Translations under genes and position numbers: made by a program
In this document: positions 6,440 through 59,700 of the stretch, piece by piece
Position numbering within the stretch: position 1 is the first letter of the stretch
How the letters are laid out: each line of letters starts with the position of its first letter
Assembly: GCA_036426205.1 (NCBI GenBank)
Contig: CM071570.1
Coordinates: forward strand, 48,720,629 to 48,784,628
Length of the DNA: 64,000 nt
Origin: Ascaphus truei
Taxonomy: Eukaryota; Chordata; Amphibia; Anura; Ascaphidae
Direction: 5' to 3'
The notes under the pieces: generated by a model
The model's database searches: none
What the model was told of the DNA's origin: nothing
Seen by the model: only the letters and a program-made list of their open reading frames with translations

Positions 6440-6660
6440 TTTATTGTAGGCCTTTTAGGGGTCTTACTGTACATTAGATTTCTTCATACAGTAGATAAGA
6501 GAATACTGTACAGAACTTTCAAAACCTCATAGGTTTCTTCTTTAAGTGTAGTGCCCTTGAAGAAGAAAACTATGAGGTTTTGAAAGCTCCATGCACTCTA
6601 ATTTCATATATGAAGAAACCCTTCCGTTGGTCTTCTAAAAGGTATCACATCCTACAATGA
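6440..6660. mobile_element. Small foldback carrying two inverted PLE-tail motifs
   Basis: The minus strand from 6543 down and the plus strand from 6555 up read almost the same: CTTRAAGAAGAAA, then CCTATGAGG or CTATGAGG, then TTTTGAAAG. The outer parts (ATTGTAGG...TTTTAGGGGTCTTA against its diverged reverse complement up to 6655) also pair. The shared motif matches the Penelope-type tail at 12816-12845, so this looks like two 5'-truncated PLE ends in head-to-head orientation. Confidence 0.5.
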
Positions 6661-7819
6661 GGGACAAGAAACAGAATCTTTATATAGTTGGACATATGCA
6701 GTGGTATTACATATTGATTTACATTGCAGCATGTTCAGTTTTGTAATGTATTTTAGCAATATAATGAAATTGATAACAGTATGGTAGGCTTTTAAAAATA
6801 AGTTTAACTCCTGCAGTGCTTCTCATAGGGCTATTGCAATATCGCAACTTTAATAAACCGTTACTTTAATAATATTTTTTTTGTAATAGTGCTAATTGCT
6901 ACAATTTAAGAAGCACAGCCATATTGTGTTTTCAGTTAGATATGAGCCTTTTACAAACCACTACCAAAATCATTTTTTTATTTAGTGATATTTGTAAGGA
7001 GCAGTTTGGAGAGCTAAAATATTACTTAAATTATAAAACTGTGAAAGAATTGTAGAAAACGTGTTCAATGGGTAAGAATTCAGATTTTTAGCGCAACTCC
7101 AAAATAGGTTGCTCAATAGGGACCAATCAAATGAAACTCCAGGAAGTGCCGCAGGATTGCTCAGGTGATGCGCTTTTCCAATTTAAGAGTAATACCTTAT
7201 GGTGATCTCAATTTGTTATATTTACTATAACTAAAGCAGTGATTATATGAAAGCAAGTTGAATAACAACTCGGCAACACAATGCTGCCACTGTGAATATC
7301 CTTTAATAATGTGTTATGAAATACGGGTTGGTTAAAGTGACCATTAGAAGCTCTAAACCTCTCGTACCACTTCTATTATGTGTGCGTGGAACAATACCTT
7401 TCATTGAATTATTTCAATAGACATTGAACGTTCCATGCACTGCTATTGAGAAACACCTAAGATATGTATGATATAACAAGCCCGTCCTGCAGTTCTGTGA
7501 GGCAGGGGTCTAATATAATAACCTGCTTGAGTGAATTCAAGAGCCAGTGAAACACTGGATGCTTTAAATGGACAATACCAATTTTAAACATTACAAGTGT
7601 AGTTGGAGAAACCACTTGGGTCATCTTTTTTTTTATAAAATAGTTCTTCCTTTCTTCCTTAACAGAGCATGTATGTCATCAATTATATATGTTTGGCTAT
7701 ATTGCAATAATGCATATAGCTGCTAAAAAAAAAAGCTGTGTGTGCTGTGCACGCGCATAGTAAGTGAAACTTCTTTGACTTTTGTCACAGAAATTGACTT
7801 ATAACGCGCGTGCTCGGCA

Positions 7820-8480
7820 CACATGTGTCAGTCAGTGTACAGTATGTGTCAGTCAGTGAGTATGTATGTGTTTGTTTGTGTGTGTGTCAACCAGTGTATG
7901 TATCTGTGCCGGTCAGTGTATGTATCTGTACCGGTCAGTGTGTGTATTTGTGTCAGTCATTGTGTGTGTGTGTGTGTGTGTCAGTGTATGTCTCTCTCTC
8001 TCTGTGTTGTGTGAATGTGTCTCTGTGTCGGTCAGTGAGTGTATGTGTGTCAGTCAGTGTGCGTGCGTATGTGTGTCAGTCAGTGTGCGTGCGTATGTGT
8101 GACAGTCAGTGTGCGTGCGCGTGCGTCAAAGTGTGCGTGCGTCAAAGTGTGCATGCGTCAGTGTGTGTGTGTATGTGTTTATTGGCAGCAGTACCAGCAT
8201 CATGAATGTTGAGCGGGTGGGGGAGCTCACAGTGGGGGGGAAGGAATAGGCACATCATTCAGGGGCGGTGTTCGGTACATCACTGGGGTGTGCGCGTGCG
8301 TCAGAGTGTGTGCGTGCGCCAGAGTAAGTGTGTGTGTGTGTGTGTGTGTGCGTCAGAGTAAGTGTGTGTGTGTCATTGTGTGTATGTGTCAGTCAATGTG
8401 TGTATGTCAGTGTGTGCGTGTCTGTCAGTGTGTGTGTGTGTGTCTGTCAGTGTATGTGTATCTCTCTGTGTGTACCGTAT
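7820..8480 (+). repeat. GT-rich minisatellite
   Basis: Units such as TGTGTCAGTCAGTGTGCG and TGTGTATGTGTCAGTCA repeat in two blocks (7820-8190 and 8290-8480), separated by about 100 bases of GGGG-rich sequence. The long cysteine- and valine-rich frames seen in it are artefacts of TGTGTG reading as Cys-Val. Confidence 0.9.
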
Positions 8481-8589
8481 GTCTCTCTGTCTGTGTCCTG
8501 CCCCCTCTCTCCTGACTCCCCCCACCCCCGACGGAGCTGCAGACCCAGGGGGCTCAGTCTGAGTCTTCTGAGCAGATACCCCCCCACCC

Positions 8590-8690
8590 CCCGGCGGCGC
8601 ACTCAAGCTCCCCCCTTCCCCACAACCCGGCGGCGCGCTCAAGCTCCCCCCTTCCCCACCCCCCGGCGGCGCGCTCAAACCACCCTATTC
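8590..8690 (+). repeat. 36-bp GC-rich tandem repeat, about three copies
   Basis: GGCGGCGC begins at 8593, 8629 and 8665, giving an exact 36-bp period, with CTCAAGCTCCCCCCTTCC between copies one and two and between two and three. Confidence 0.85.
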
Positions 8691-8734
8691 CCAGGCTGTT
8701 AGGAGCGGCGCCGGCCTCCCTCCTCCTGTCCATC

Positions 8735-8940
8735 GGCATGGCAGCGGGCGGGGAACGGCGCCGCTGCCAGCCGCTTCTGCGCATGCGTGGCGCGCGGCAT
8801 GGTAGTGGGTGGGGAACGGCGCCGCTGCCAGCCGCTTCTGCGCATGCATGGCGCGCGGCATGGCAGTGGGCGGGGAACGGCGCCACTGCCAGCCGCTTCT
8901 GCGCATGCGTGGCGCGCGGCATGGCAGCGGGCGGCGGAAC
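8735..8940 (+). repeat. 61-bp CpG-rich tandem repeat with NRF1-like sites
   Basis: GGCATGGCAG-type starts fall at 8735, 8796, 8857 and 8918, an exact 61-bp period; the fourth copy is cut short. Each full copy contains CTTCTGCGCATGCGTGG or a one-base variant, close to the NRF1 consensus YGCGCATGCGCR. GC-rich palindromes (GGCGGCTATCGCCGCC at about 8965, GGCGGCTATAGCCGCC at about 9068) follow. Open frames on both strands through it are compositional. Confidence 0.85.
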
Positions 8941-9119
8941 AGCGGCGCCGTGGCAGTTAGGAGCGGCGGCTATCGCCGCCGGATGTGAGCAACTGGGTGT
9001 GGGTGTGTGGGAGGGTGAGAGGTGTGTGGGAGTGTGAGGGGTGCGGCGGCGATTAGGAGCGGTGCCGGCGGCTATAGCCGCCGCCGCCACATGTGCCAGG
9101 GGGCATGTGAGCGGAGCGG

Positions 9120-9375
9120 CGTCCATTACGTGACGTCACTTCCGTTTCACATTTCGCCCCCATCTATCCAGTTTTATCCCATCAGAGGTGCCACTAAAGA
9201 AGTTGCACTTCAAAAAATACCGCTAACATCAACATTTGCATTTATTAAGCTTTCTGTAAAGGCGTTAGAGATATTATTTACTCAGAGTGATACTGCCTGT
9301 CTGTGTGTCAGCCTCAGCCAACAATCGTTTCGCGCGCAAACGCGCTTTGTCAGACATTGACAAAGAGTTTTAGTT
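9120..9375 (-). mobile_element. PLE-like tail fragment with hammerhead-like motif
   Basis: On the minus strand CTGACAA (9353-9347) is followed by an extra A, a perfect five-pair hairpin GCGCG/CGCGC with a TTTG loop, and GAAA at 9331-9328. The G of the CTGANGA box at position 8 is replaced by A, and the bases after GAAA (CGAT) are not a palindrome, so a cleaving ribozyme is unlikely. A perfect CRE, TGACGTCA, followed by CTTCCG lies at 9131-9144. Confidence 0.5.
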
Positions 9376-9499
9376 TTGCGCACTAACACGCTTTGTGAAG
9401 ATTACCCTGGGAGCTTTTTTCCGGACATGCGCAGTAGCGCCAATGGTCTGACAGGCCACTGGGCTACCAACTTGGCGCCAGTGTGTCTACTCAGACATC

Positions 9500-9625
9500 G
9501 GATATAAAAGCCACAGAGGATGCCAGAGGTGTGAAGAACATTTGGGCAAGGTGACTAGGCTCAAATACCCATGTCCTGGGATGAATGGAGGTCCTCGGGA
9601 CCAGTGCATGCAGCAGGGCCCAGCA
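9500..9625 (+). repeat. Interspersed repeat, copy 1
   Basis: CAGAGGATGCCAGAG, CATTTGGG, GGCTCAAATACCCATGTCCTG in this order recur at 27690-27755 (CAGAGGATGCCAGAG, CATTTGGG, GGCTCAAGTATCCATGTCCTG). GGATATAAAAGCC at about 9500 is TATA-like, so this may be the transcribed part of an LTR. Confidence 0.55.
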
Positions 9626-10639
9626 GAGACCCGGACCTGACAGTGCAGAAAGAATCAGACAGACAGAGGCTACTACAGGGAGAGATTAGGGAGCTCAGCT
9701 GTACAGGAATTACACCAGGTCGGAGTGGGTAAGCTAACCCACAAAGGATTTAAACTGCAGTTATTTTGCCATCACTGTTTGATCTTTGTGAAGCACCAGG
9801 CCTGCAACGCACACAGTGTATGAGCTCCATCGATTGTGCTAGCACACCAGGATCTACAGGCCAGTACCCCATGATTGGGAGGCCGGACAGAGATAAAAGC
9901 TATTATTTGTTTGTACAGCGTTCGCACTGTTGGTATAGTTTGCTTAAGTATACATGTGTATGAAGTGATTCTGAGATTGAGCCATCGTACTGATTCATAT
10001 GAGACATGTAACACCACAAATTATAGCTATATGAGTATATAAAGCTTGTTATAATTCATTACCACTGTGTTGTGTCTAGTCACTACAGTCTCACACAACA
10101 TGCACCACATACTATAAGAATTAAACAGTAACCCATAGGACTCAGGCTCCCACCTCAGTGACAGGCCATAAATGTAATATAAAGGTAATTACAAAGGTAA
10201 TATAAAGGTAATATAAAGAGGGGTTACATGTACTGTATAATATATATTGTATTCAACACTCACTGCAGTCCACCTGTGCTGTGCTTCAAATAGGCTCAAC
10301 CATTATCCTCCTCGCTGCCACAATGGTGGAAAGAGTAAAGGCCAAACGTAGAGGAAATTATTTATATGGGGCCTATGTATCAAAGTATGTTTTGATGTAC
10401 TGCTCCATTTTGGAGCCAATTTGCTACAGTACATATGTAAGAACATTTTTTTACATTTGATGCAGCATTTTAAACTTATGCTACTTCAGATATGGGGAAT
10501 TTTGGGGGGCAAATAGAAGGGAAAAAGAATTGCGCACAGAGATGCAGATTGTGACACATCTCATTATAATATGTGCACATTGTAACTCTATCCCCAATTC
10601 CTGCTACTAACACCACCTAGGTCGCAAGCTTGGGCAGAT

Positions 10640-10850
10640 GGGGTAAAATTGGAGAACATACTAGGACCTGCAGATTGGTCATGCCGTGAAGTGGCTGCAG
10701 GCGTATAACCTTTTGGCCAAAGGGTTTAACTAAATGACCCTTTTTCATGAGCAGATAAGCACTGAGGTATTGTTGTGCTATATGTTGTGTCATTTTGTAT
10801 GATGCGCTGGCCTTTCTGGTTTTGTTTGTTCTTTAATACATAGATGTAGG
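10640..10850 (+). repeat. Dispersed repeat family R10, copy 1
   Basis: TAGGACCTGCAGATTGGTCA, CGTGAAGTGG, CTTTTGGCCAAAGGGTTTAA and CTAAATGACCC occur here in that order. Two tandem diverged copies at 20147-20520 carry the same landmarks. No coding potential is visible. Confidence 0.65.
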
Positions 10851-11387: not shown

Positions 11388-11871
11388 ATGGTTTCTGGCT
11401 ACCAGTCTGCCCTTCCCCTGGCAGTGAGCCCTGGTAAGAGCAGGCCTGCCAGGACTAATCCTGGGTTTTCTCCACCCCCCGCAGCTTCAGTGAGTCACAG
11501 GGGAGGCGGTGCAACTAGGCATGTGTGTCCTATCAGGGACTCAGACCTGGTTCCTGCTTTTCTTGTATTTAAGGGGCTGCACTACCAAAGTTAGTCAGTT
11601 GTCTCTACCTTTAAGAGAGACAGCTTCTTACCCAGAAGTGCGGATTGGCTGTGCACTTACTGCCTTCTCCCCGTGGGGAGTTAGAAGTGAGAACATTCCT
11701 CTGGCTCTAATATGGAGTCAGGGAAGAGCAAGGATTTCTGTGGGGGCCCTGTACCTGCAGTGGAGGTCCAGGGTACATACTAAGGGTGAGGCCCCAAGAA
11801 CTGCTGTAACCACTGTGTGAGCTGTATATGCTGAACATCTGGAGTGTGAACAATAAAGTGTGTTCCTATTC
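11388..11871 (+). repeat. LTR-like block abutting the PLE fragment
   Basis: CTTGTATTTAAGGGGCTGC near 11565 is TATA-like and GAACAATAAAGTGTG near 11850 is a poly(A)-signal context, about 285 bases apart as in an LTR. The block stops where the PLE endonuclease reading frame begins. The ends and target duplication were not defined. Confidence 0.35.
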
Positions 11872-12372
11872 ATCTATACCTTTCTCAAGAAAATGATGGT
11901 GAGAAGTAAAGTATCCAACAATATAACTGAATGCGGGACAAGACCATGCCAGGACTCAAGATGTAAAACCTGCGCAATGCTCCACACAGCGGGCACAATA
12001 CACGTACCACACAGGAATCTGCAGTACAAAATCACAGGAAGATTCACCTGTTCCTCCAGCAATGTCATGTAGCTCATTATGTGCATGAAATGCCCAGGGG
12101 GCTTCTACTACATAGGTGAGACGGGATAGGGGCTAAACAAGAGAATGAATCTGCATCACCACCGCATCACACGTGGAACAAGAGACAGTCCTGTCGGCGA
12201 ACATTTCTCTGACTCTGGCCATAAAATGAACGATCTGAAGGTAGCCATACACAAAGGTAATCTTAGAACACTGAAAGAGAGACGGGTGCATGAATACAAA
12301 TTTATGCAACTGTTCGGGACACTTAGCGGTGGCCTAAACCGAGACCGAAGTTTCATGAGTCATTACTGACAC
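11872..12372 (+). pseudogene. Penelope-like element, C-terminal GIY-YIG endonuclease (5'-truncated)
   Basis: The frame carries a cysteine cluster (CGTRPCQDSRCKTC) and then MYLI-type and FYYIGETG motifs, the two halves of a GIY-YIG nuclease core as found after the reverse transcriptase of Penelope-like retroelements. HRITRGTRDSPVGEHF, the ERRVHEYKFMQLF helix and the terminal GGLNRDRSFMSHY also match the family's usual C-terminus. Two in-frame TAG codons, at 12070 and about 12127, fall at positions where the family has a sense codon. The reverse transcriptase is missing, so the copy is 5'-truncated as is usual for target-primed insertion. In complete elements the enzyme nicks target DNA to prime reverse transcription. 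Confidence 0.9.
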
Positions 12373-12905
12373 AAGTGAACTCTCTTTCCATGAGGGCTAA
12401 AGGCCATGTCTATACATACCACGCTACATCAATGCACACACAGCTGTCTCCTGCACATACAAATACACAATGTAATTCCATCCCTATAGACCAATAGGGA
12501 CCACATAGTATCTACACACACTTATAGTAATGCAACACCCTCTTACATTTCTACACCTACCCACACCACTATATACACGTTCACTCCATGCACACCTTTT
12601 GTAAAGCGCTGTATACTCTGTGGGCACTTTTCAAATTTATATTTACATACACCCACACACTCTTACATCACTTACATTCAGGGACCATTTAACAACTCAA
12701 GTCATAAAACGCATACTGCACAGGGGGAGGGATAAGCTTCAATCACAGATCACATTCCAGTATGCACTGTTTTAAAGTAAAAACCCTTTTTTGGCTCCAT
12801 TCATTGCAACATCTTCGGAAGAAGAGATCAGTGTATCTCGAAAGCTCGCACAAATAAAAACATTTCTTTAGCCACAGAACGGTGTCGTCTATTCATTTTA
12901 GATTA
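12373..12905 (+). mobile_element. PLE 3' untranslated region with structured tail
   Basis: After the stop the sequence is AC-rich. It holds a hairpin motif at 12816-12845: CGGAAGA, A, GAGAT/ATCTC paired around CAGTGT, then GAAA and GCTCGC. This is the layout of the hammerhead-like motifs elsewhere in the window with one mismatch in the CTGANGA box (T to G). The element probably ends soon after CAAATAAAAACATTTC. Confidence 0.7.
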
Positions 12906-12937
12906 TTAAGCTCAGCTAACACGGTACAGATACCGCT

Positions 12938-12940
12938 CTC

Positions 12941-12973
<33 letters not shown>

Positions 12974-19384: not shown

Positions 19385-19640
19385 TCATGGCGATGTCAAA
19401 TGGCGTCGCCATGACAACAGGACATCACATGATGCGTGGAGCCAGTGGGCACCTCGTTGTCATAGCAACATGCAGCGTCACAACGTCACGTGATGTCCCG
19501 ATGTTATGGTGATGCAACGTCATTTGCCATCAGGTGGCACCATGTTGATAAAGTCCCTTTGGGATGAAACGCGTTAGCTCTCTCTTCACCATTGTACATT
19601 CATTAAAATACCTTTAACTTTTTATATGGAGTTGTCCTGA
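19385..19640 (+). mobile_element. PLE-like tail with hammerhead-like motif
   Basis: TTGATAA (19545-19551), an extra A, a stem GTCCC/GGGAT (19553-19557 with 19561-19565) around TTT, GAAA (19566-19569), the palindrome CGCG, then TT. Upstream, ATGGCGATG and its relatives recur in both orientations from 19387 to 19515. Downstream a CATTAAAATACC segment resembles a poly(A) site. The box departs from CTGANGA at two positions, including G8, so activity is not expected. Confidence 0.55.
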
Positions 19641-37579: not shown

Positions 37580-39050
37580 AGGTAATTGTACAGGAAAACC
37601 TATGTAGAGAGCTGGAATACAGCACTGAGCAGGTTAATTCAGAGCAGACTATGCCAATTAATCAGCTCAGCTGGCTGCTCCTTTAAAAACCCTGCAGCAT
37701 TGACTGCAGGGAGATGTCCAGTCCATGGAAATGCCCTGTACTGTTTGAAAGATCGGAGGGAAGCTGCGTCTCTCTGGTTCCAGACACACACTGAACCGCT
37801 GTGGAGAGAAGCGTGCTTAAGGATTTCCAGAACCTTACCCCAGCCCGAAGGTAACTGACCTTCACTTTGTTTGCTATATGTGTTGTTGGTAAGGGGCCTA
37901 TCCCCCCAACCCATAGATATGGTGTATGGAGAGGTATAGTAAGTGCTTTCAACAGGAGTTAGGCTGTTTGTTTCAATTTCCTGTAAACCCTGTTTGGCTG
38001 ATCAATGAATGAGAGGGGAACGGAGGGACCTACTGCTACTGTATGTATATCCCCTCAAATCTACATTGAAATAACTTGTGGAGAGACACCTGTGGATACA
38101 AAGGGGCACACCTGGATGATGCAAAGGATATTTAATCTAATAGAATATGCAAAGTATATTATATGACTCACACCCCACACCTTCTAAAATATTTTCACAA
38201 GGTCAAGCCTAACATGCAACCTAAGGCACCTTTTTCGTAAGTGAGTACGGCCAGGCCCAACACGATCAGAACCCACAATTTCTGACATCAGGGCTGAAGC
38301 TCTAGCTGCTGGATAGCTCCTCTGTCGCTGCATACTTTTGAGCTCTCCTGCTCAAATCTGCAGCTATGATATCCACGGACAGTATTTCCCCTGATTTCCT
38401 TCCTATACTTTGCATATTCTATAGCATATCTCCCGGGCATTTCAAATGTGTTCCTTTCTGTCCACAAGACACATTCAACTGAAAACCAGGAAGTGGAAGG
38501 GGTCTGCTTTAAAGGGAGCCAGAGGAGTGTCCATGAGAAGCAACAGGTGTGAGCAGTAGAGCTCAAAAGTTCGCTGCGATAGTAATACAAGCAACTCCAA
38601 CCAATGGGGCTTTGAAGAAGGACCAGCCGGGTTTGAAATATCGCCCAGAGTCTACAGGTCTAAACTGCATCTCCATGGAAGATTTAATGACATCAGATAC
38701 AGCAGTGAGGAAACGAATGGCACCATAACGGGGAGAATTGAGCCACATTGAACTGATTTTGTAAGAAGTTCCAATGAACATTAGATTATTTTCTTCCATC
38801 TGTTGGAGTTACTTGCATCATTTCCTGTGGAGGGTTTTTGTCACTTTTTTTACTCACCATAACTTAACTCAGTATTATGGTTTAGCCTTCCCATAGCCTC
38901 TTGCATTCCCAGTAAAATCAACCCACACTGATGGACCCATCAAGGTCGACGAAAACGTGTCGTGGGTGGTTTTTGGGTATGCACTTAACCCTGGCTGTGC
39001 TCAAAGCTGTGACCATGCAGCAAGCTAAGCCTATAGGGAACCATGTTAAA
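37580..39050. other. No gene seen
   Basis: Several short frames exist but show no homologous motifs. A GTCGACGAAAACGTGTCG block at about 38945 is a weak candidate for a further PLE-like tail. Confidence 0.35.
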
Positions 39051-39060
39051 AATGGTTATT

Positions 39061-39200
39061 GAGGCAAAAAGTGACCACTGTGTGCTCATTTGCATGTATT
39101 TCCAGAATCCCTGCTGCAGTGAGATGCTGTATGCTGGGTGATAATGGGGAAAGGCGGGGTTGCAGACCTGCCTAAGACATGCAGATGAGCATATATATAC
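39061..39200. mobile_element. Short element with octamer-like ends, copy 1
   Basis: The ends carry inverted octamer motifs, ATTTGCAT at 39088-39095 and ATGCAGAT at 39179-39186. Between them is CCAGAATCCCTGC, then TGCTGTATGC, then AATGGGGAAAGG. A copy in the opposite orientation lies at 48555-48705. It is non-coding and probably a MITE. Confidence 0.55.
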
Positions 39201-41100: not shown

Positions 41101-41183
41101 TTAATACTGTAGTGCCGACGAGTATTCTAAAACAAATCTGGGGCAATCACCAACAAGATCCAGATACATGCTGGGTACATGCT

Positions 41184-41342
41184 GCAACATTTCAGTGACA
41201 TTTCTGCAGACAGACTATGGCCATCGGATAACAGCGGGGGCCCTGGCAGTCCCATTCAAACTGAATGGGACTGTCGGGGACCCTGCTGTGTTAATCGCAT
41301 GGGCCATTAGTCTCTGCAGAAATGTCACTGAATGAAAGTTGC
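41184..41342. mobile_element. 159-bp hairpin MITE nested in left arm
   Basis: The whole element folds back: CAGTGACATTTCTGCAGA near its start pairs with TCTGCAGAAATGTCACTG near its end, and TCCCATTCAAACTGAATGGGA forms the tip. The opposite arm of the large inverted repeat lacks it, so it was inserted after the arms formed. Confidence 0.7.
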
Positions 41343-42253
41343 AGATGTAGCCAGCATGTAACCAGCATGTGACAAAAGAAAAGAAAAGAAAAGAGGTTGG
41401 GGCGCTCCCTATTTGTATAGGCTTGTGATGTGCCTGTTGGTGTGTGTAACCAAAAAAGGGTAGTGTATACTTGCCCTTGTGTTTTCTGCAGCTGGACCAG
41501 TAGAGAAGATAAAGCCGGAATCTTCTTGTAGTTGCAGTGGAGGTGGAGGGTTGGTCAGCGCACGGGATTTTGCTCAAACGTAGAGAAAGAGGATAGGAAG
41601 ATATGAACACGGTATTAGTGTTTAGTAATCGACGGTACAATACAGCCAAAGAACTTTGGAATTAAAAATGTATGAAAAATATTTTTAAATAGCTTAAAAC
41701 TCTTTGGAATTAAAGAACCTTGGTAATTAAAAGTAATAATGAAAAAATATATTCTAAAATAGCTAAAAATCCTTAAATAAAATCCTTAAATAAATTTAAA
41801 TGGAATTGTGTGGGTTTTTTTGTGAACAGAAGCAGAATACGTGATAATGTGGATGACTAACAGGGTGTGTTTATAGCCTGTGTTGGTCTGAGGTAAAAAG
41901 GGGATAATGGGGCGTTAGCAGGTTGAATGCGCAGTCTTTCCTTCACGGAATGCTGTAAAAACAATAGCTTTCTCACCCTCCTGGTGGGGGCAGTACGTGA
42001 GTTGCTTCTCGGGCCCAAATAGGAAGAAAAGGGCCGAACTCGGTGAGTGAGCAAAATAGAATTTATAGGTACAGAACAAAGTCAAAATACACACTCACGG
42101 TACGCTAAAACAGCCCAGCATCAGGCTGATGTCCGGTGATATTCCTCTCCCCAGACCCCTCCCGTGGTGCGTCCGACGGCGGGACGCGGAAGAGGAGGTC
42201 TTACTGGAGTCCGCAGGCTGGCGGGTCCTTCAATCAATGGGCTCGCAGGGAAC

Positions 42254-42281
42254 AACTAGTTTCGCAATAATGCTTCGTCAG
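42254..42281 (-). ncRNA. Hammerhead-like motif, inverted copy
   Basis: On the minus strand: CTGACGA (42281-42275), A, GCA/TGC hairpin, GAAA (42263-42260), CTAG, TT. It is identical to the plus-strand copies across the core, but the base-paired outer stem is lost beyond one pair because the palindrome centre replaces GGAAC with GGTTC. Confidence 0.4.
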
Positions 42282-42285
42282 GAAC

Positions 42286-42313
42286 CTGACGAAGCATTAT
42301 TGCGAAACTAGTT
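42286..42313 (+). ncRNA. Hammerhead-like motif, first plus-strand copy
   Basis: CTGACGA (42286-42292), A, GCA/TGC hairpin, GAAA (42304-42307), CTAG (42308-42311), TT. GGAAC precedes it, but GGAGG follows, so the outer stem is not complementary. It is the left half of a 36-bp direct duplication. Confidence 0.4.
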
Positions 42314-42316
42314 GGA

Positions 42317-42354
42317 GGAACCTGACGAAGCATTATTGCGAAACTAGTTGTTCC
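42317..42354 (+). ncRNA. Hammerhead ribozyme-like motif, best copy
   Basis: Stem I is perfect: GGAAC (42317-42321) with GTTCC (42350-42354). The core box CTGACGA is at 42322-42328, followed by an extra A. Stem II is GCA/TGC around TTAT (42330-42339), then GAAA at 42340-42343. Helix III would be the self-complementary CTAG (42344-42347), and the cleavage triplet would be GTT with cleavage after 42349. Penelope-like elements are known to carry minimal type I hammerheads with very short helix III that act as dimers. The extra A before stem II and the short stem II weaken the prediction. No activity is shown. Confidence 0.5.
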
Positions 42355-43359
42355 CTGCCGGAGCCCATTGATTGAAGGACCCAGCCAGCCTGCTGACATC
42401 CAGTAAGACCTCCTCTTCCGGTCCCGCCGTCGGACGCGACCACGGGAGCTGTACTGGTGAGAGGAATATCACCGGACGATCAGGCTGATGCTGGGCTGTT
42501 TTAAAGCTGTACCGTGAGTGTTATTTTGACTTTGTTTTCTGTACCTAATAAATTCTATTTTGCTCACTCACCGAGTTCGGCCCTTTTCTTCCTATTTGGG
42601 CCCCCGGGAGAGAAGCAACTCACGTACTGCCCCCACCAGGAGGGTGAGAAAGCTATTGTTTTTAGCAGCATTCCGTGAAGGAAAGACTGCGCATTAAACT
42701 CTGCTAACCAGCCCCATTATCCCCTTTTTACCTCAGACCAACAACAGGCTATATAAACACACCCTGTTAGTCATCCACATATAGCACGTATTCTGCTTCT
42801 GTTCACAAAAAACCCACACAATTCCATTTAAATTTTATTTAAGGATTTTATTTAAGGATTTTTAAGCTATTTTAGAATATATTTTTTCATATATTTACTT
42901 TTAATTACCAAGGTTCTTTAATTCCAAAGAGTTTTAAGCTATTTTAAAAATATATTTTTCATACATTTTTAATTCCAAAGTTCTTTTGGCTGTATTGTAC
43001 CGTTCGATTACTAAAACACTAATACCGTGTTCCATATCTTCCTATCCTCTTATCTCTACGTTTGAGCAAAATCCCGTGCGCTGACCAACCCTCCACCTCC
43101 ACTGTACCCAGCATGTACCTGGATCTTGTTGGTGATAGCCCCAGATTTTCCAAGACAAGTTTAAGGCAAGTTTTAGAATACTCGTCGGCGCACCTGTATA
43201 AGATTTTAACAGCGCGTAACTTAAGTTAAAGTACCTTTATTTTAAATACAACTCAGTGTATGGGGTCCACAAAAGACTGAAATGTAGACTGCTCTCTGGG
43301 ATAAAAAAATAAATGACAGAGTAATTCTTGGGAAAGGATGTGACGTCATCCAAAGGGAG

Positions 43360-46779: not shown

Positions 46780-46870
46780 TGGTACGGTGGCGTAAGAAGC
46801 CCAAAAAGTCCAACGCGTTTTGTCTATATTTTTACTTCTTCTGAGTTTATAGGTCACTCTCTGCTCTTTA
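46780..46870 (-). mobile_element. PLE-like tail with degenerate hammerhead-like motif
   Basis: On the minus strand CAGAAGA (46843-46837), A, a weak GT/AC stem around a long AT loop, AAAA, the palindrome CGCG (46817-46814), then TTGG. It shares CGCGTTGG with the motif family but has lost the CTGA part and most of stem II. Confidence 0.4.
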
Positions 46871-49065
46871 CCAGCAGGAAAAGTGTGAGTTTTCCCTTTC
46901 CCCTCTGTCCTTATTGTATTTTTTTGGGGAATATCTGTCCCTAGAAAGAGTTTAGGAAATCCTTCTGGATAGGAACTTGCACAGGACAGCTCTGTAGTCT
47001 GAGTCCGCCACCTACTACAAGCAGTAGTCTCCTTATCAAGCTGGTTGTCAGCTGTCTCAGCTTACTTCCTGATTGCCCAAGTATTCTTACTGGGTTAACG
47101 TTCTGAGTGCTGGATGAAGGACTCAGATCTATGTTTCCAAGGCATAATTATCAGTACCTGACTTCACCCTGTCACAGTGGTATTATTGATAGTGAAAGAG
47201 GATTTGGGTGTAGTAGGGTGGAGAGCAAAAGGGGAAAGAGTATTTATTATTTTTGGACATGTTAAGCTTCAGGTAACAGTGAGACATCCAGAAGGAGATT
47301 GCTGAGAGAGCGTTGGTGACACGGGACATTAGAGAGCGGTATTGGTCAGAAGAAGAGATGTAGATTTAGGCGTCATCAGCATTGAGATGATACTGAAAGC
47401 CAAAAGATTTTATTGGTTCACCAAGAGAAGCGATATAGGGGGATATTCCAGTAGTTGCGAGTTTGTCATTGCCACACTGCACGGTTTGACATGGTCATAG
47501 GCAGAGGATTAAAACTAGCCAAAATCCATACTGCAAATTACATAGTTTAAATGCATCTATAAAAAGTCACAAGCCCATGGTTTAACAGCCAAAATGCCCA
47601 GATTGTGCTTGCATTTGAAGTGAAATGACCTGAGGTGGTGCTAACTCTATCTAGAGTCTGACATTTGGGTTTTGCTGAGAGATTGGTTTTGCTGAGAGAT
47701 GGGTTTTGCTCACTCTCAGCAAAACCTAGATTTCTGGTTCTGAATGGGACTCACAATACCGATCTCTCCACTCTGAAGGAGCCGAGAAAAATAATGCGAG
47801 TTATTAGAAGCACTTTTGCATTTTACATTACTAGAATTCAGCTAGTATTCCAAAAATGCGAGTTTGAGCACTTGGATGGAGAAGGGAGTTAAATGTGGCA
47901 AATACAGAAGGTGTTGAGGGTTAGAAGACAGAGATAGTATGAGAGAAAAAAGTAGGTTTGCTTGGTAACGTAAAGGGCATTGTTATTGTAGAAGAGTAGA
48001 AATTTATAGGGGAGGAAAATCCTTTAGAGTGGGATTCCGTCCAGTAACGTTCAGCCGTGCGTGAGCACTTTTGGAGGTAGCAGGTAGCTCTTGTGTGCCA
48101 TGGTTGTAATGTCTGGGGACGACGTGTGGTGTCAGGAGCTGTCTTATCTAAGGATGATGAAAAATGATGTTGTATAGAGAGGTTCCCAAGTCACTAATCT
48201 CTGTTTTTTTTAACAACCTCTAGTTGTGTGTGCACCCTATGGACAAAATAAAAGTGTTTTTTTTTTTCAATTATAAAGCTTTTATTCAAATACATTTGTT
48301 GCCTGTGTGGTCTGCTAGAAAAATCAGAATTGCCTAAACCTGGAAACATAAAAAAAAATTGTATTATCAATTCTTAATTATTCTCATTTTATTTTTTGTA
48401 TTTGATTTCAAATATTTTCCTTTTGCAGATATGGCAAAAGGACTGGTTGTTTTGGCAAAAAAATTAAAAAATCCATTTACTGTAATCATAAATAAAATAT
48501 TATTTTGGTGAAATGCCAGAAAGAGGTGAGATGCAAATAAAAAATACCACGTCCGAGCGTATTCACATGTCTTAGACAGGTCCACAAAGTGGCCTTTCCC
48601 CATAATAACTAAGCATACAATGCTTCCACTGCAGCCAGGGATTCTGGGTAAGGATATGCAAATGAGCACTCACAGTGTGTCACTTTTTGCCTCTTGTCCA
48701 CCTGAACATGGACACCTATATGCTTGGGCCATGGATATAGTCGCTCGCATTATGGATGCTGCCTTATGCTTAGGAAGAGGTGACAATGATTCTATTTGTG
48801 GAGGCAAAACGTTTCCAGCAGGTGGAGCATGTACTGTGTCTCCACATGAACTGGTAATTTGTGCTGGCAGTTAAATAATGTGTGTATTATTAAAGGGTAA
48901 GTGATTAACTGTAATTTACAAGCTCCTACTGGAATATTTGTACGTTCATTTTCCAATCACTATAATTTGCAATGCGTCTTCATAAATAAAAAGAGGGACT
49001 GGAAAACTACATTACTACAGTTTAATGGTTTTTACAGCTGTTTCGTCTTGGGCACACCCTCTTAT
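46871..49065. other. Mostly unassigned; one dispersed repeat
   Basis: Around 47240-47440 a GACATCCAGAAGGAGATTG, GGCGTCATCAGCATTGAGATGATA segment looks like a dispersed repeat, but I cannot place its family. GGTTTTGCTGAGAGAT is duplicated at 47671-47702. No gene was seen. Confidence 0.35.
48555..48705. mobile_element. Short element with octamer-like end, copy 2 (reverse)
   Basis: This is the reverse-complement counterpart of 39061-39200: a perfect octamer ATGCAAAT at 48656-48663, GGGATTCTGGGTA, then GCATACAATGC, CCTTTCCCCATAATAAC. Confidence 0.6.
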
Positions 49066-49879: not shown

Positions 49880-51625
49880 CTCCATGCCCTCCAAACAGTG
49901 CTTACAATTTGTCCCAGTATCTGAAGAGAAGATTACACAGCTGCTAGTAGCATTACAATTAAACACACAACGTCCTGACCTGACCTACGGCAAGTTCTAC
50001 GACACTGTGCCCCAGTCACTGCCATACCAGTTTCCTCACTAATCAACTCTATTTTTTCTTCAGTCCATAGCCCACAGACCTGGAAAACTGCCAGACTTGT
50101 CCCAGTCTTTAAAAGTAGGGACAAAAACACTGTCTAACTACAGACCAATTTCACTTCTCCCGATACTATCCAAAGTCAAGTAAAAATGTATCCACAATTA
50201 AGCGATTACTATTATTTCTTAGTCAACTTCAATTTGGCGTTTTCCCAAACCACTCCAGGGTAACTACCATCTTAATAGTTGGCAATGAGATCTAGTGTGG
50301 ATGGGACTGGGACAATTTACTAGTGCAATAGTCCTAGTTTTTGTAAAGACTTTTGATACTGTTGACCATGTTATTTGGCTAAACAAGCTTCAGTGCTCTG
50401 GAACAGGGGAACATGCTGGTTTCACGTCTACCTATTGAGTAGATCCCAATACAGTATGTGTCTGTCTCTTTTTCTAACACGAACCCCTTGGATTTCACCT
50501 GTGGGGTCCTGCAATGCCCTATTCTGGGACCCCTATTATTTTCAGTCTTCATTAATGATCTATCTACAGCTTGTAAAGCAGCTTCAATGCACATGTATGC
50601 GGATGACACTATCTTATATGCACACAGCCCTAGCCTCTCTGATCATGGACAGGTACTTAAATCTCATTTTCAAGACTTGAATACTGGATTTTCCAGAACA
50701 AACTGTTTTTTTTAAACACTGTCAAAACTGTAACTATGGTATTCAGCTACATTTCTAAAGCTTCCAACAACAGATCTACAGATCAGAACCAACGCTAACA
50801 CCATTCTAGCCCCTTTCACTAGTTTTACATAACTGGGCATACTGTATGGTGTGACTCCCATTGCATACTGATATTCTGACATTCAAAACCTACAGTATGC
50901 CAAACTAGGTGTGCTTCATAGGAGCAAATCCTCCTTAAGCCCACTAGTCACAACGTGCATCGCACAGCAGATGCTAATGCCTTTATAGACTATGGGGACT
51001 AAATATATGGTACAGCACTTCAAACTCACCTAAGCAAACTAGACACCATCTGCAACGTAATATGTCGCTTTGTCCTCCAATGTAACTACAACATACACCA
51101 CTGCAAAGTGTTCAAAGAAATAGATGGGCTATCACTTGAGTCCAAGCACAAAGTACATTGTTCCTGTCTTGCTTTCAAATGCTTTCTGGACAAGCTAGAC
51201 AGTTATCTTAACATGCCCCACACCTCTACCACATGTGGCACTTATCACCTGAGAGCTGACTCCAAAAGACTGTTCATGGTCCTATGGTTTAACAAAATAA
51301 TCTGGTCGCTCCTCCTTCTGTTACCATGTACCTCGCAACTGGAACAACCTACCAGAGACTCTCAAATCCGTCTCTGTATTCAATTCTTTCAAAACTTCAT
51401 CTGTCTCACATTTTAATTTGGTTTGTAACTGTTACTGTATATAAGCTCATAACCTATGTTGCCTCTAACTATCCATGAAATGTCTGTAAATATAACTTAT
51501 AGCCTCTGTTCATTTAATATAACCATGTATTGTCATTATAACTCTGTACCCAGGACACACTTCAAAACGAGAGATAACTCTCAATGTATTACTTCCTGGT
51601 AAAACATTTTATAAATAAATTAAAT
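49880..51625 (+). pseudogene. CR1/L2-type LINE, reverse transcriptase and 3' end
   Basis: The plus strand carries, across shifted frames, NYRPISLLPILSK (near 50140-50180), VKTFDTVDHVIW (near 50350), GVLQCPILGPLLFSVFINDL and HMYADDTILYA with the YADD catalytic box at 50596-50607. The carboxy-terminal ICRFVLQCNYNIHHCK lies near 51050-51105. The order matches blocks of a non-LTR reverse transcriptase. The 3' end has ACTCTCAATGTATTACTTCC and ATAAATAAATTAAATAAT. Endonuclease and ORF1 are absent: a 5'-truncated, frameshifted copy. Confidence 0.88.
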
Positions 51626-52248: not shown

Positions 52249-54111
52249 TGTTACGCTACTGTGAGGATGCGGGGATCGCGGCGTTCACAGGGCGACCCCT
52301 CCTCACCTCCGAATGCCCCTGCTGCCGTGTGACGGCTTCCTCTCCTCACCCGACCTGCTCCCGCTGTGCGGGGGCGCCTCCCTCGCTCCCGGCGGGCCAA
52401 CGCTGCCCCGCGGCCTCTCAGGGCTCTGGCGGTTCCCTCGGGTCCCGGGCGCGCGCTCTCCGACCTTACAGAGCGCGCGCCGGGCAAGTATAATTTATTC
52501 ACTGCACTAGCAGTGAAACCAAGCCCCCAAATATCACAAAGGCTGCCACTTAACCCCAAAGCTCCCCACCTGGCTGCTTATTATAGGAACCAATCCAGGA
52601 CAACTCCTCATGTTCCTCCAGGTCTGCCTCCATTCCCTATTGATTTGAGGTACTAGGGGAGCCCCTGCTACAGCCACAAATGGATATGGATGTGAACGGT
52701 GCTTTGGGTGTGAACACAGTAGTAGAAGGTGATGAGAGAGAACCCAATATAGCACTCAGGTTCACACTCTGGAGATGAGTGAATGATTTAAAACATAATC
52801 TTTATTAGTAGCAACGTATATAAAACAATGGAGCTCGTGCATTACCATACAGGGTATTAGTGCCCCGACGGTCACTCTTAGCCTCGTTCAGGAGTGTTTA
52901 CAGGGTTAGTGCTCTGATGTATATGAGTACTGAGTAACGTTGCCTGCAGCAATACTGAAGCTGCGCTGCTGTGTCCGGATTCCTTCACAGCAGCAGTGAG
53001 GTTATACCTTCTGTTAGTGCAACAGCCTAGCCCTCTGATATATGCTGAAGTTACATATTTGTCTCCTATCATCAATGTCTCCCATATTGGGGTCCAACTG
53101 ACCTTTTCCATGACCTACAGTCAGGGTACTTACCACTGGTAATAGCCACGCAGGTTACTGCAGGTCAACACACTCCTGCAGAACAGCACTCAGAAGGTTA
53201 CCTTAGGTCATTCTGACACTGTTTTGGGTATGCGATTTTTTACAGAGGAGCATAGCTGATTGCACAATTACCACCACTGATATACATAGTGTATTTGTTT
53301 ATATGTTTATCAGTTACTACTGGTCACATTTACCATGTCATACTAGGGTCTATGCAGTCATTACCCTTGTGATCTGTAGTCTCAGTACCTACCCGGGCAC
53401 ACCCAGATTATTCACTCATTACACAGGTCCATACCAGGATTTATGTGCTGTCTTGTTACCAGTGGTTTATTAAAATTACCTGGTACACACAAACAAGTCT
53501 TATCCGGAGCCAATATGGCTATCATTTATTAGGATCAACCTACCTCCAGTACGTTGTTCTATCATCCATTGTTTTATATACGTTGCTACTAATAAAGATT
53601 ATGTTTTAAATCATTCACTCATCTCCAGAGTGTGAACCTGAGTGCTATATTGGGTTCCATCTCTTCACCTTATACTACTCTGATCCCCATTGGTCAGCCA
53701 TGATATATATGTGCTGCCTCTCTCACAGCGCTCGACATAGTTTCTGCTTACAGACGTCTATTCTGGCTTTCCCTTTGCTCTTCGTTATTCAGGTTGCGAC
53801 CCGGCTTGGCGGATTTTCCTCTCTGGCTCTGGACCCCGGCTCCCACCTGACCTTGCAGCTTCTCTCATCCCTCGACCACAGCTTGGACCTCGACCTCCCT
53901 GATCTCTCTCTCCCTGACCTTGGCTTACGGCAACCACTTTGTCTCTTCTGTACCAGTACCGGCAAGTATTGCTACACCTATTCACACCTGGCCTGGCAAC
54001 GCCGAAACACTACACTACGGACACGCTCCTTCTGTTGCGGGTGCGTGCACATATATGTCCCCACCTCAGTATAAGAGACGAGTCTGGTCTGCGGGCAGCA
54101 CCGGCGTAACA
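52249..54111 (+). mobile_element. Ty3/gypsy LTR split by a nested foldback
   Basis: The element begins TGTTACGCTACTG and ends CCGGCGTAACA. Its last 130 bases match the end of the solo LTR at 444-1428. The outer LTR parts (52249-52725 and 53672-54111) add up to about 915 bp, close to the 985 bp of the other copy. The GC-rich first half is CpG-dense with GCGCGCGC sites. No 5-bp duplication flanks it (ACAGA against GCTAC), so one end may have recombined. Confidence 0.7.
52726..53671. mobile_element. Foldback element with perfect 93-bp inverted arms
   Basis: The arms 52740-52832 and 53565-53657 are exact reverse complements, 732 bp apart, with slightly diverged extensions (AAGGTGATGAGAG against AAGGTGAAGAGAT) to about 52726 and 53671. 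The right arm includes ACTAATAAAGATTATG, a poly(A)-signal context. The interior has no coding. Perfect arms inside an older LTR point to recent insertion or arm-to-arm gene conversion. Confidence 0.75.
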
Positions 54112-56610: not shown

Positions 56611-56648
56611 GCATTAGTGGCGTCTGTATTCACAGAGAATACCCGTTA

Positions 56649-57038
56649 GGCCTCGGCCATGTTTACCGCTTGCTGGCGGAAGCGTGCTGACGCGCGCTCC
56701 CGCTCAGCACTGAGCCCCTACGGCCGCAATTAGAGCGGCCTTAGTAGGGGCTCACCTGCGCTTCCGCGCGCTTGCGGAAGCGCAGGTCTTAGGGAAATTT
56801 AAAATTCCCCCTCTTGCCGGCACGACAGGCCGGTCATGTGAGCGTTTCGCCCAATGAGGGCGAACCAGCTCCGTGACATCACTGGCCCACCCCTGGACAG
56901 TGACGCACCCGCCCCGGCCCGCCCCCTGACGGCCTGCTGACAGCGCGTGCGATAAGCAACCGCAAGGCCAGGGAAAGCACCCGCTTTCCCTGCGCCTCAG
57001 CGCGCCTCAGCACGCCAGCAGGGAGCATGGCCGAGGCC
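56649..57038. mobile_element. PIF/Harbinger-type MITE, 390 bp
   Basis: Terminal inverted repeats GGCCTCGGCCATG and CATGGCCGAGGCC are perfect for 13 bp, and similarity continues inward. TTA stands immediately outside both ends (56646-56648 and 57039-57041), the 3-bp target duplication typical of Harbinger elements. The interior is GC-rich with a palindromic CTTCCGCGCGCTTGCGGAAG. No transposase is encoded, so it depends on one in trans. Confidence 0.85.
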
Positions 57039-57042
57039 TTAC

Positions 57043-57092
57043 ACATAGATACATACATACATACATGTACAGTACATACATACATACATATC
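57043..57092 (+). repeat. (CATA)n microsatellite
   Basis: ATACATAC units flank a GTACAGTAC interruption. Confidence 0.85.
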
Positions 57093-57129
57093 CACAAATC
57101 CCCATCTGAATGTCAGGTATGATGAAAGA

Positions 57130-57690
57130 ACTAGAGTCCAATAGAACAGAGCAAAGGAGACTTCCTACTGTACGCTTCAAAATAGATTGAGCTATTGAGA
57201 TATAAGTCCTCAGACGTATAGAAGAAAAGAGACAAAAAAAGAAATATATACAGTTTAATACTGTAATTGAACAATGAAACATAAATAGTGGTGAGACATA
57301 CACTCAAATTTGCATCTCTTGTATGGTAACTGTCAATGGTTTCTTTATTGTCCCTGCAGGTGATCCTTGCAGAATCCCTGGTCCAGCAGCAACAGTGGTT
57401 ACCATGCAAAAGAAAACTGAGCCAAAGTTAGTGCAACACAATTTATTTAACAACTATTAAAACTGAACATTTTTCACTCACCAATTAGTTTAGTTTTCTG
57501 TGCATATAAAGAAATTCTAGGTCCTGTTACAAAAATGTAGACAGTCTCCTGTGTTGGAAGAAAGGTACCTCGACGTCCCACATTCTTCTAAATCTCCCGA
57601 TGATATCACACTCAGATTTGTGATGGGGTTACTGAAACTCAGCTTGTCCAGTCCCAACGCATTTTGCTTTAATGCTTCCTCAAGGGTATG
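57130..57690 (-). mobile_element. PLE-like dispersed element, copy 1
   Basis: On the minus strand a tail motif TTGAGGA, A, GC...GC, AAAA, TGCG, TTGG (57683-57654) is followed by ACAGGACCTAGAATTTC and TTAAATAAATTGTGTT (about 57445-57430). A further block, GATCACCTGCAGGGA, with a CAATAAAG poly(A)-like signal follows. The same order recurs on the plus strand at 60115-60400, and a middle part recurs at 58060-58220. Confidence 0.55.
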
Positions 57691-58059
57691 ACACCTACCT
57701 ATCTCCATGTAGGTTCAATTCCCACATCCCTTCTGATGCTTGTCTTAAAGGGGACCACACCGTATTCTACATCTGAATATGTCTTCATGCAGAGCTGGCT
57801 GGTGGGTCTCATTTGTGGTCATTTATACCTTTTATTACATTTCATCATTATTAAACTTTGTTAACAATTTGATATAATATAACAGTTATGATGACATATG
57901 TAGCATAAAATGTAGATATTTCTCAGTTTCATACCTTTCATTATAAAACCAAATGTGATTGAGACAAAAAAATGCTGATGATCTCTCACCTAGAATGGGT
58001 GTGTGCCCATTGCAGACAGGTTGGGCTTCAGCATCTGCAGCACAGAGCTCAGTGTGGCA

Positions 58060-58225
58060 TTATAAGGGAGATTTTGGCGAACGTGGGGCACCATTGTACC
58101 TGTTCTCCAACACAGGAGAACATTAACACTTTTGCCACAGGAACAGACCTAGAATTTCTTTATATGCACAATCAATCAAAGAAACAAATGTGTGAGCGAA
58201 GATGATTGTTAAATAAATTGTAAAA
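58060..58225 (+). mobile_element. PLE-like dispersed element, partial copy 2
   Basis: CCAACACAGGAGA, ACAGACCTAGAATTTCTTTA, TATGCACA and GTTAAATAAATTGT match the minus-strand 57590-57430. The two copies form an inverted pair about 0.5 kb apart. Confidence 0.6.
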
Positions 58226-58975
58226 CAAAACACAAATACAGACCAGCGCCCAAAAGATAATAATGTCCACTAAGTCCAAATAAGAGTCCAATCGGTGATG
58301 ATATAGGATCAGGCTCCAATCAGTGGATCCGTGACATGCAGAGAAATAAAAGAAAAAACATCATAGTGTATAAAGTAGATAACATATGACAAAACTGAAT
58401 AGAAACAAAAAACATGAAACACAGAAGCTGGTGACATACAAAACTATTAATTTATTAAAGACAAGGAAGCCTTTAGTAGCGGATCATCAGGGCTAAAAAA
58501 CAGAGATATACAGAAACAAAAAAGTGAAACCGAGCGCTTCTAACTAAAAATCTAAAGTTAATTTGTGTTAACAATAACCAATAAATGTGAGGCAAAATGG
58601 AAAAAATATATACAAGTGTGATAAATAACCTTCACCAGAAAAACGTGATATATATGAAAAACGTGATATATAAAATGTGAAATACATATGAATACAGCAG
58701 CTCTACACCCTTTTAAAGGACTGTCCAGGTCCAATGTAGTCTTGCGTTGTCTTCCATATAGGAGGAGCGTTGTAGTTCTCGTAGTGGTATGTGAAAAATA
58801 AAGAAATGGTATAATGGTGCAGATGGTAATAATAAATCGAATATCAAAAAATTAGTCTCTGTGTTGATTGTACTCACAAATTGGTAAGATGTTATTAGAC
58901 ATATCAGAGATCCATCGCACTCTGATAGGAGCCCTTTAATGGAAGCCCTCTAAGGAAGCCTTATGATAGCTGGTC
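58226..58975. other. Repeat-derived sequence, unassigned
   Basis: The minus strand holds CCTGATGATCCGCTAC at about 58494-58479, a box similar to the PLE tail but without GAAA. AAAACGTGATATAT is duplicated at about 58642 and 58659. No gene was seen. Confidence 0.35.
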
Positions 58976-58979
58976 TGGT

Positions 58980-59700
58980 AAGCTTGATGTATATTAGGAA
59001 CGTGTGAAAACTCAATACATGTATACCTCCCAAGGAATATGGAGAGAGAAAAGAGAGAGCGCACAATGGTATAGTACGATAAGGGTATATATTGTACAAC
59101 AATAGCTTTTAGGTATTGCACTCACATGTTTGCATAAATAACAATGCGTTGGAGAGAACTGCTGGTTTCTCGTGGATGGCGCCGGTGCATTCAGACAACG
59201 GAGGACTTCCACATGCATCACATCGTCTACATCATGTCCTGTGACGGCTATGATCAGGGCGGAAGAAGCTGCCTTGCGTTTCAGTCTCCGTGGCTTGCCA
59301 GCACCTCCCTGCGGTATTCTCCCCAGCTCTCAGTCACCTCCAACAGCTGATTCAACGCGTTTCGCTGTGGCTTCGTCGGTAAAACCAGAGCCCTACTTAC
59401 AACAGTATCGGATAAAATGCGCGTTGAACACCAGACAAAGGCAATGATGGGATGAAGATAGTCCTCTGCAGACAACTGCACAGATGGTAGATGATCGCAC
59501 ACCTCTCCCTCTGGCCGCAGGGCTCTCAACAGGAGCACAGCAACTTGCAGGGACCACTCCAACACAGTCTGCGTATGCCGTGCGGTAGAGCAACGCGCGA
59601 CGCACTTCCGAATTCTTCCAAGGCGCCGTGACCTCTGACCCTATGCGTTTCGTGACGACGTCACTTCCACAGGGGTTTGGAAAGGTAGAGGTGGAGTTGA
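58980..59700 (-). mobile_element. PLE-like tail region with hammerhead-like motif
   Basis: On the minus strand CCGACGA (59379-59373), A, GC CACA GC, GAAA (59363-59360), CGCG (59359-59356), TT. The CTGANGA box has one change (T to C). About 280 bp upstream on that strand a second GTCACGAAACGCATAGG block next to GACGTCACTTCC (59657-59668) resembles the same end. Small open frames nearby are not gene-like. Confidence 0.5.

Follow-up and report, generated by a model that had tools for sequence, protein, structure and literature searches.

Hammerhead-like motifs with an extra core A and their association with Penelope-like elements in the genome of Ascaphus truei

A 64,000-nt stretch of the Ascaphus truei genome (on contig C4; hereafter the window) contains short hammerhead-like motifs at dispersed loci, and these raise the question of what the motifs are and which elements carry them. 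Each motif has the order of a hammerhead, with stem I, CUGANGA, one extra A, stem II, GAAA and UH, and where an endonuclease frame of the type found in Penelope-like elements is present the motif sits ~250 to 1,200 nt downstream of it. Judging from sequence, we consider the motifs to be minimal type I hammerheads that would act as dimers and that many Penelope-like families carry in their 3′ regions (terminal repeats), a reading to which we assign a probability of roughly 0.8. A first-pass annotation of the window had proposed that one motif recurs at eight or more loci with its structure conserved and its sequence not; its interpretation is supported overall and its observation is partly confirmed, and it missed both stem I and the palindromic stem III.

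The class is abundant. The pattern CTGANGAAGN{4,30}CGAAACGCGTTG has 3,452 + 3,558 = 7,010 exact matches in 2.82 Gb of genome, and the reversed pattern, used as a control, has none (0 + 0). The same pattern is present in 29 stretches of a 257-Gb prokaryote collection and in 1 among viral contigs, and in these 30 matches stem II pairs 2–4 are paired in 22/77 cells, with all three paired in 1/30. Leaving the four bases after GAAA free raises the count to 5,406 + 5,496 = 10,902 (control, 14 + 7). A pattern in which 0–3 bases of any kind may separate CTGANGA from the opening G of stem II gives 3,556 + 3,676 = 7,232 matches, 222 above the one-A pattern, with slightly different gap ranges in the two patterns. 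Among the 100 matches listed for it, A directly follows CTGANGA in 100/100, as a single A in 99 and as two in 1. Both extra-A patterns require an opening G-C pair in stem II and CGCGTTG, and other forms fall outside these counts. In the counts and listings CUGANGA and GAAA flank stem II and UH precedes the 3′ strand of stem I, as in hammerheads, although stem II does not directly follow A9 as it does in canonical ones, the extra A standing between them in every match listed. The first-pass claim that all copies share the extra A, as a feature of this lineage, is right as to constancy in the copies listed, although an extra A in the core is also known elsewhere.

Covariation was examined in lists that hold the first 100 places on one contig, related copies included. 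The 100 matches listed contain 77 unique stem-loops, which form 33 groups at 80 % likeness, and in 30 group representatives of at least 11 nt stem II pairs 2–4 are 92 % paired, compared with 46 % when the 3′ halves are re-dealt (maximum 64 % in 2,000 shuffles). For a formal test we took 24 copies on contig C1 that have a 14-nt stem-loop, chosen for gap-free alignment. In these, 97.9 % of stem II cells are paired (59.7 % shuffled), and the covariation score is 0.922 vs 0.164 shuffled (0/500), with slid registers reaching at most 0.193, which bears out the proposal that structure is kept while sequence is not. Pairs with two-sided changes and the number of pair types are not above those of shuffles (443/500 and 147/500), and since some of the 24 copies are related, the independent stem II events are fewer than 24. 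Stem I was counted at 17 loci, namely the window copy at 42322, L015 and L029–L043 (both described below; one strand per pair), leaving out the other window copies and the plus-strand copy of L029; its inner four pairs are 85 % paired vs 60 % shuffled (0/10,000), and the 14 distinct arm pairs are 84 % paired vs 57 %. Covariation therefore supports both stems, in copies from one contig of which some are related.

The four bases after GAAA are CGCG in 67 of the 100 matches listed, CATG in 6, CTAG in 6 and others in 21, and the stem III hexamer is mostly self-complementary (ACGCGU, ACUAGU, ACAUGU). Loops other than CGCG are palindromic in 12/33 cases vs 5.2 by shuffle (9/20,000 shuffles reach 12), a comparison that overstates independence because several CTAG and CATG copies fall in the same stem II groups. 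The two adjacent middle bases are GC in 80 of the matches listed, AT in 6, TA in 6 and others in 8; CATG can be reached from CGCG by two CpG transitions, and CTAG cannot. Since these adjacent bases covary yet cannot pair within one molecule, pairing between two copies is indicated. When folded as dimers, three of four extra-A copies (window 42322, L031 and L032) show stem I, stem II and a stem III merged across the two molecules, CUGANGA-A staying unpaired, and a canonical copy from the same genome forms a clean double hammerhead; in the single-copy folds of all five copies tried, part of the core is paired instead of free. The palindromic hexamers, the covarying middle bases and three of the four dimer folds fit a very short stem III that is able to pair between copies, and dimer models for minimal hammerheads have already been published, as passages of PMC6466107 and PMC7761336 describe.

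These pairings also bear on whether the motif might be a dead fossil, a once functional hammerhead that has been passively copied and whose extra A is an old defect fixed in the founder element. Such a history would suit the extra A in all 100 matches listed, the decay of many window copies and the G found in place of U4 in the subtype at window 12816 (three copies read), but sequences that diverge under passive copying do not hold on to their pairing, and here the 77 unique stem-loops in 33 groups still pair and the tetraloop has switched to other palindromes. We consider a fossil very unlikely.

The first-pass annotation had tied the motif to Penelope-like elements through the locus at 12816, and correctly placed that motif downstream of a Penelope-type endonuclease: it begins 447 nt past the stop (12369) of the 11977–12366 frame. 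The wider link was followed at 15 loci chosen for their motifs (L029–L043), which comprise four inverted pairs, three long-spaced inverted pairs, picked because they should extend into the coding part, and the eight single places at the head of the list. It holds for some of them, an endonuclease lying upstream on the motif strand at six (L030, L034, L035, L039, L042 and L043), including 3/8 singles and 2/3 long-spaced pairs. The endonuclease-to-motif distance is ~421 nt at L030 (in both arms), ~496 nt at L034, ~1,070 nt at L035, ~1,182 nt at L039, ~382 nt at L042 and ~255 nt at L043; at L034 and L035 the endonuclease is upstream of one of two motifs. For the eight single-copy upstream stretches the chance estimate, taken from 3 fragments per 200 kb, is ~0.1 vs 3 seen. 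At these six loci, and at window 12816, the motif is thus found in or beside a Penelope-like element. In the window, the motif at 59379 and its downstream flank are 73 % identical over 751 bp to L030, whose motif follows an endonuclease frame, and a relic of an endonuclease C-terminus upstream of the 59672 motif is tentatively identified from tblastn matches over 14–16 residues (E 0.01–0.045), supported by its translation.

The endonuclease assignment is based on mutual similarity and on the relatives P0004 and P0005, which score above the PF01541 cut-off; P0001, P0002 and P0003 are below it (P0001 E 8e-4). P0001, an Ascaphus truei hypothetical protein, was the sole match in a search with the 11977–12366 frame. 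Pfam gave no family for the window open pieces 11857–12072 and 12130–12369 or for the L030 endonuclease piece, and a PDB comparison of the L030 endonuclease returned nothing. From the style of the endonuclease sequence, these elements may be of the Neptune clade.

Some copies are arranged head to head. All nine neighbour pairs within 3 kb among the 100 matches listed are −/+ divergent, against a chance expectation of 0.7 at that distance. L030 forms a palindrome of 2.75 kb with 95 % identity and has the endonuclease in both arms, the palindrome arms of L031 and L032 are ~0.7 kb long (97 % and 99.7 %), and that of L029 is just 111 bp. The window palindrome 41134–43148 is of the same sort, with a third motif in the middle, and is read as head-to-head 5′-truncated element ends. 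Head-to-head inverted Penelope insertions with palindromic junctions, for which self-priming is argued, are described in a part of PMC3846280. It might be supposed that the motif works as DNA, a cDNA or terminal-repeat hairpin and palindrome serving in self-priming, strand transfer or protein recognition at integration, with the hammerhead likeness inherited and unused. That would agree with the presence of copies in head-to-head inverted insertions, with the self-priming argument just cited and with ribozyme mutants that, in an excerpt of PMC11167929, had no effect on insertion in vitro, but what is conserved is the asymmetric core of a hammerhead (CTGANGA, GAAA, UH), in contrast to the two stems, which vary. 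Because a plain hairpin needs no such core, and with inverted-pair copies a minority (18/100 matches listed), a role as DNA appears unlikely.

A copy identical to the window motif at 42322 is among the matches listed, at C1:12407193. We note that the outer ends of the window palindrome, read by eye in 41115–43190, are GTGCCGACGAG and CTCGTCGGCGCAC with CTGTA beside both, a possible 5-bp target duplication. Within it, 42256–42311 matches mir-2062 with 43 bits (gathering score 90) and mir-580 with 31 bits (gathering score 83), over the inverted hammerhead junction; both are sub-threshold, and a miRNA identity was rejected, these being mere hairpin matches to an inverted repeat. Some Rfam miRNA entries may perhaps be confused with such junctions.

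How many of the window copies belong to this class was judged with a covariance model (R1) whose 24 source copies all lie on contig C1, and not on the contig of the window. Run on the window with filters off, R1 gives 26 matches at E ≤ 10, with E-values that are rough. Ranks 1–6 are six copies listed in the first-pass annotation, at four loci: 59379–59353(−) with 24.4 bits (E 2e-4), then 46843–46811(−), 42281–42253(−), 42286–42314(+) and 42322–42350(+) with 18.6 bits each (E 0.0056), and 9353–9322(−) with 16.8 bits (E 0.016). The claim of eight or more loci stands for these four. As for the others, 57683(−) and 19545(+) are weak (12.4 bits, E 0.2, and 11.0 bits, E 0.46), the motif at 12816 is a separate subtype, and 6557, which lies within an inverted repeat of 145 nt at 74 % identity, fits an AGCT-type descriptor with one mismatch and has no R1 match at E ≤ 10; the missing match is not decisive, because R1 misses 12816 as well. 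The copy 59672–59641(−), absent from the first-pass list, scores 12.3 bits (E 0.22). Since three other unlisted matches, at 50044(−), 33456(−) and 33486(−), score as well (12.3–12.8 bits), R1 alone does not establish 57683, 59672 or 19545.

The three copies of 42254–42349 match a strict descriptor (CTGANGA and A, at least 3 pairs in stem II, then GAAA, four bases and TT) with zero mismatches, where 30 shuffles give a mean of 0.0 (0.1 with a free tail). With 2+2 mismatches the descriptor finds 6 window places vs a shuffle mean of 0.05 (20 shuffles), one of which, at 29892(−) with a G-U-rich stem, is probably due to chance. With 3+3 mismatches the count is 11 vs 9.35 shuffled, and because it equals that of shuffles, the window by itself gives no means of judging a weak locus taken singly. 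Rfam reports no hammerhead in the window at the gathering score or at E ≤ 10, nor in the L030 copy at E ≤ 10, so that RF00163 does not cover the copies tried. If the motifs were a chance resemblance, CTGA..GAAA words that happen to fall near short inverted repeats in a 64-kb window, the 3+3-mismatch count and the unlisted R1 matches that score like weak listed loci are what one might see, but for the class chance is refuted by the covariation tests and by the excess of genome-wide matches over those in the prokaryote collection, and we attach next to no probability to it; for the weak loci 6557, 19545 and 57683 individually, chance resemblance is possible.

If the motifs are minimal hammerheads of Penelope-like elements, a mechanism may be proposed as follows. 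Stem III would be too short to close in one copy, and the palindromes of two copies, either the two terminal repeats of one transcript or those of two transcripts, would pair into a double hammerhead. This would cut after U17 and presumably free element RNA of unit length, its ends defined, for use in reverse transcription. A lone motif is probably weakened, and its activity lowered, by the extra A that separates A9 from stem II, and cutting could then depend on the dimer and perhaps on an element protein. Divergent inverted pairs such as that at 42254 would represent head-to-head 5′-truncated insertions of the same elements. More tentatively, and with less than even confidence, the Penelope-like elements of amphibians could harbour a separate hammerhead subclass, in which the extra A is fixed and under selection and holds the lone motif inactive; it is conceivable, at a similarly low level of confidence, that cutting in such a subclass occurs only on palindrome pairing of two terminal repeats or with bound element protein. 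Equally speculative is the corollary that dozens of families have kept the extra A while replacing both stems, in a subclass whose copies, where tried, were missed by Rfam.

Several observations weigh against a dimer-acting hammerhead of Penelope-like elements. No endonuclease was found at 9/15 motif-chosen loci (L029, L031, L032, L033, L036, L037, L038, L040 and L041), and to that extent the first-pass link falls short. Two of these nine, L031 and L041, resemble endonuclease-bearing loci over more than the motif itself; for L033, L037 and L040 the stretch in common with such loci is 39–46 bp, little above motif length, L032 matches L033, and L029, L036 and L038 match no endonuclease-bearing locus. 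A 200-kb sample of twenty 10-kb stretches (2 flanking the window and 18 at round coordinates), searched with R1 under default filters, has 7 R1 matches at E ≤ 1, three of them above 16 bits, in L015 (two) and L019; one further match, in L014, is a canonical copy. The endonuclease fragments of this sample, in L012, L023 and L028, come with no R1 match at E ≤ 1, and L015 and L019, with their strong motifs, have no endonuclease. The loci examined show only 3′ ends with endonuclease and no complete element with motifs at both ends. The core departs from the consensus in its extra A and U17, and in the three good extra-A dimer folds A14 pairs with U17, which would be unfavourable to catalysis; in the L030 dimer fold stem I and the merged stem III form, but the core CUG is mispaired. 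Most window copies have a poor stem I, and among those outside the stem I count, together with the L029 plus-strand copy, at least three consecutive stem I pairs from the core occur only in 59672 and 57683.

At L015 no recognizable Penelope frame is present among open reading frames of at least 110 aa. We note that its two motifs are in tandem, 890 bp apart, inside a 3.4-kb direct duplication at 86 % (32–3428 / 6525–10000).

The features of the window are collected in Table 1.

Table 1. Hammerhead-like motifs and associated features of the window
Feature	Position	Strand	Description
Hammerhead-like motif	42322..42349	+	Stem I GGAAC/GTTCC, CTGACGA, extra A, stem II GCA-TTAT-TGC, GAA
Same motif, 3′ part	42322..42349		Palindromic stem III ACTAGT, then T17; zero-mismatch scan, R1
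Second, tandem motif copy	42286..42313	+	Starts 36 bp upstream of 42322; own stem I poor
Third motif copy, inverted	42254..42281	−	Head to head with 42286; descriptor and R1
Large palindrome	41134..43148		Centred on the three motifs; 41535–43104 is 92.6 % self-complementary; ~355 bp only in left arm
Same palindrome, outer pieces	41134..41179 and 43103..43148		Left and right outer pieces
Motif	59354..59379	−	2-bp stem II GC-CACA-GC, stem III ACGCGT; top R1 match in window
3′ tail downstream of 59379 motif	58512..59377	−	Homologous to L030 tail, 72 % over 896 bp
Motif, not in first-pass list	59642..59672	−	CCC / CTGTGGA-A-GTGAC-GTC-GTCAC-GAA-ACGCAT-A / GGG; descriptor, R1, stem I
Relic of Penelope-type endonuclease C-terminus (TLFPNGLNIDFDLGVS), tentative	60090..60137	−	Ends 418 nt upstream of 59672 motif, same strand
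Possible decayed motif	57656..57683	−	Stem I CCC/GGG; GAAA decayed to AAAA
Motif	46812..46843	−	ACGCGTTG intact; stems I and II weak
Possible decayed motif	19545..19575	+	5-bp stem II GTCCC/GGGAT, ACGCGTT; descriptor and R1
Probable decayed motif	9322..9353	−	6-pair GC-rich stem II; stem III decayed to ACGATT
Penelope-type GIY-YIG endonuclease frame, in-frame stops	11977..12366	+	83 % identical to P0001
Second motif subtype	12816..12843	+	CGGAAGA-A-GAGAT-CAGTGT-ATCTC-GAA-AGCT-C; element 3′ region
Claimed copy in inverted repeat	6557..6588	+	AGCT-type descriptor with one mismatch; weak stem II

In the subtype at 12816 stem III is AGCT, and each of the three copies read (window, L004 and L014) has G in place of U4 (CGGAAGA); the 3′ region of the element at 12816 has homologues in L004, L006 and L014. 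We note that in both L004 and L014 a 12816-type Penelope 3′ motif has a canonical hammerhead within ~1 kb of it, in the same orientation, the two perhaps forming one composite element; L004 has one further canonical copy, inverted. Elsewhere in the window, an inverted repeat of 121 bp at 95 % (52712–52832 / 53565–53685, with 732 bp between) resembles a DNA transposon.

Minimal type I hammerheads of Penelope-like elements have reportedly been treated by Cervera and de la Pena in 2014 and by Lunse, Weinberg and Breaker in 2017. The present motifs resemble them as outlined in passages of PMC7761336 and PMC6466107, being borne by Penelope-like elements, with a reduced stem III, tandem copies, very large numbers in animals and proposed dimers, and differ from them, as described in citing papers, in the one extra A that constantly stands between CUGANGA and stem II. 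No statement of an extra A in hammerheads of Penelope-like elements was found in the literature searched, which was without the 2014 and 2017 papers named above. Axolotl has Penelope-like elements with minimal hammerheads in tandem, according to a portion of PMC7229834. In the section of the 2020 review PMC7761336 that deals with them, the role of minimal hammerheads in these elements is called a mystery. With thousands of copies, dozens of stem II groups and one shared core change, the idea of dimer cutting becomes testable here; the covarying palindrome is sequence evidence for it. The Poseidon element PAc of Anolis, also Penelope-like, carries a hammerhead whose description covers stems I and II and loop II; in the relevant excerpt of PMC11167929 it shows no cleavage without the element protein, ribozyme mutants left in vitro insertion unchanged and, unlike the present motifs, its motif overlaps the start of the frame.

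The plus-strand hammerhead of chrysanthemum chlorotic mottle viroid has a normal stem III, and its extra A is said, by De la Pena and Flores in 2001, to lie between A9 and stem II. It is likewise a natural hammerhead with an extra A (as given in part of PMC3705267), although there the ribozyme is viroid-borne and here it belongs to a retroelement family. Removal of an extra core nucleotide from a viroid hammerhead raised cleavage and abolished infectivity, as a passage of PMC11014351 states; with this parallel, a role of the extra A as a tuner of activity is testable in the present class. Insertions at A6, in GAAA and near C3 are mentioned, together with repeat-associated Xenopus hammerheads, in part of PMC3088659.

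The genome of A. truei also contains canonical type I hammerheads (RF00163): of 344,898 first candidates 74 were scored, and at least 42 exceed the Rfam cut-off. An extra A is present in 0/11 canonical copies read at nine loci (L001–L008 and L014); most have C17, and stem III is mostly palindromic, ACAGCTGT or ACGGCCGT. L006 holds two canonical copies in a 403-bp tandem unit and is retrozyme-like; we note that sequence similar to this unit is present in the window at 38802–39193 and 48563–48693. An assignment of the present motifs to the same class as these retrozyme-like hammerheads was rejected, the latter having no extra A and another core and stems, and the motifs do not correspond to non-LTR retrozymes either, their core being non-canonical and the motif following coding frames at 6/15 loci; the retrozyme-like units of this genome form a class apart, L001–L008. 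The canonical copies are found by Rfam, whereas those of the present class, where tried, escape the Rfam hammerhead models; because the canonical copies read are without the extra A, two hammerhead classes stand side by side in this genome. Minimal hammerheads associated with Penelope-like elements and proposed to act as dimers are known, and it is the constant extra A that may be new.

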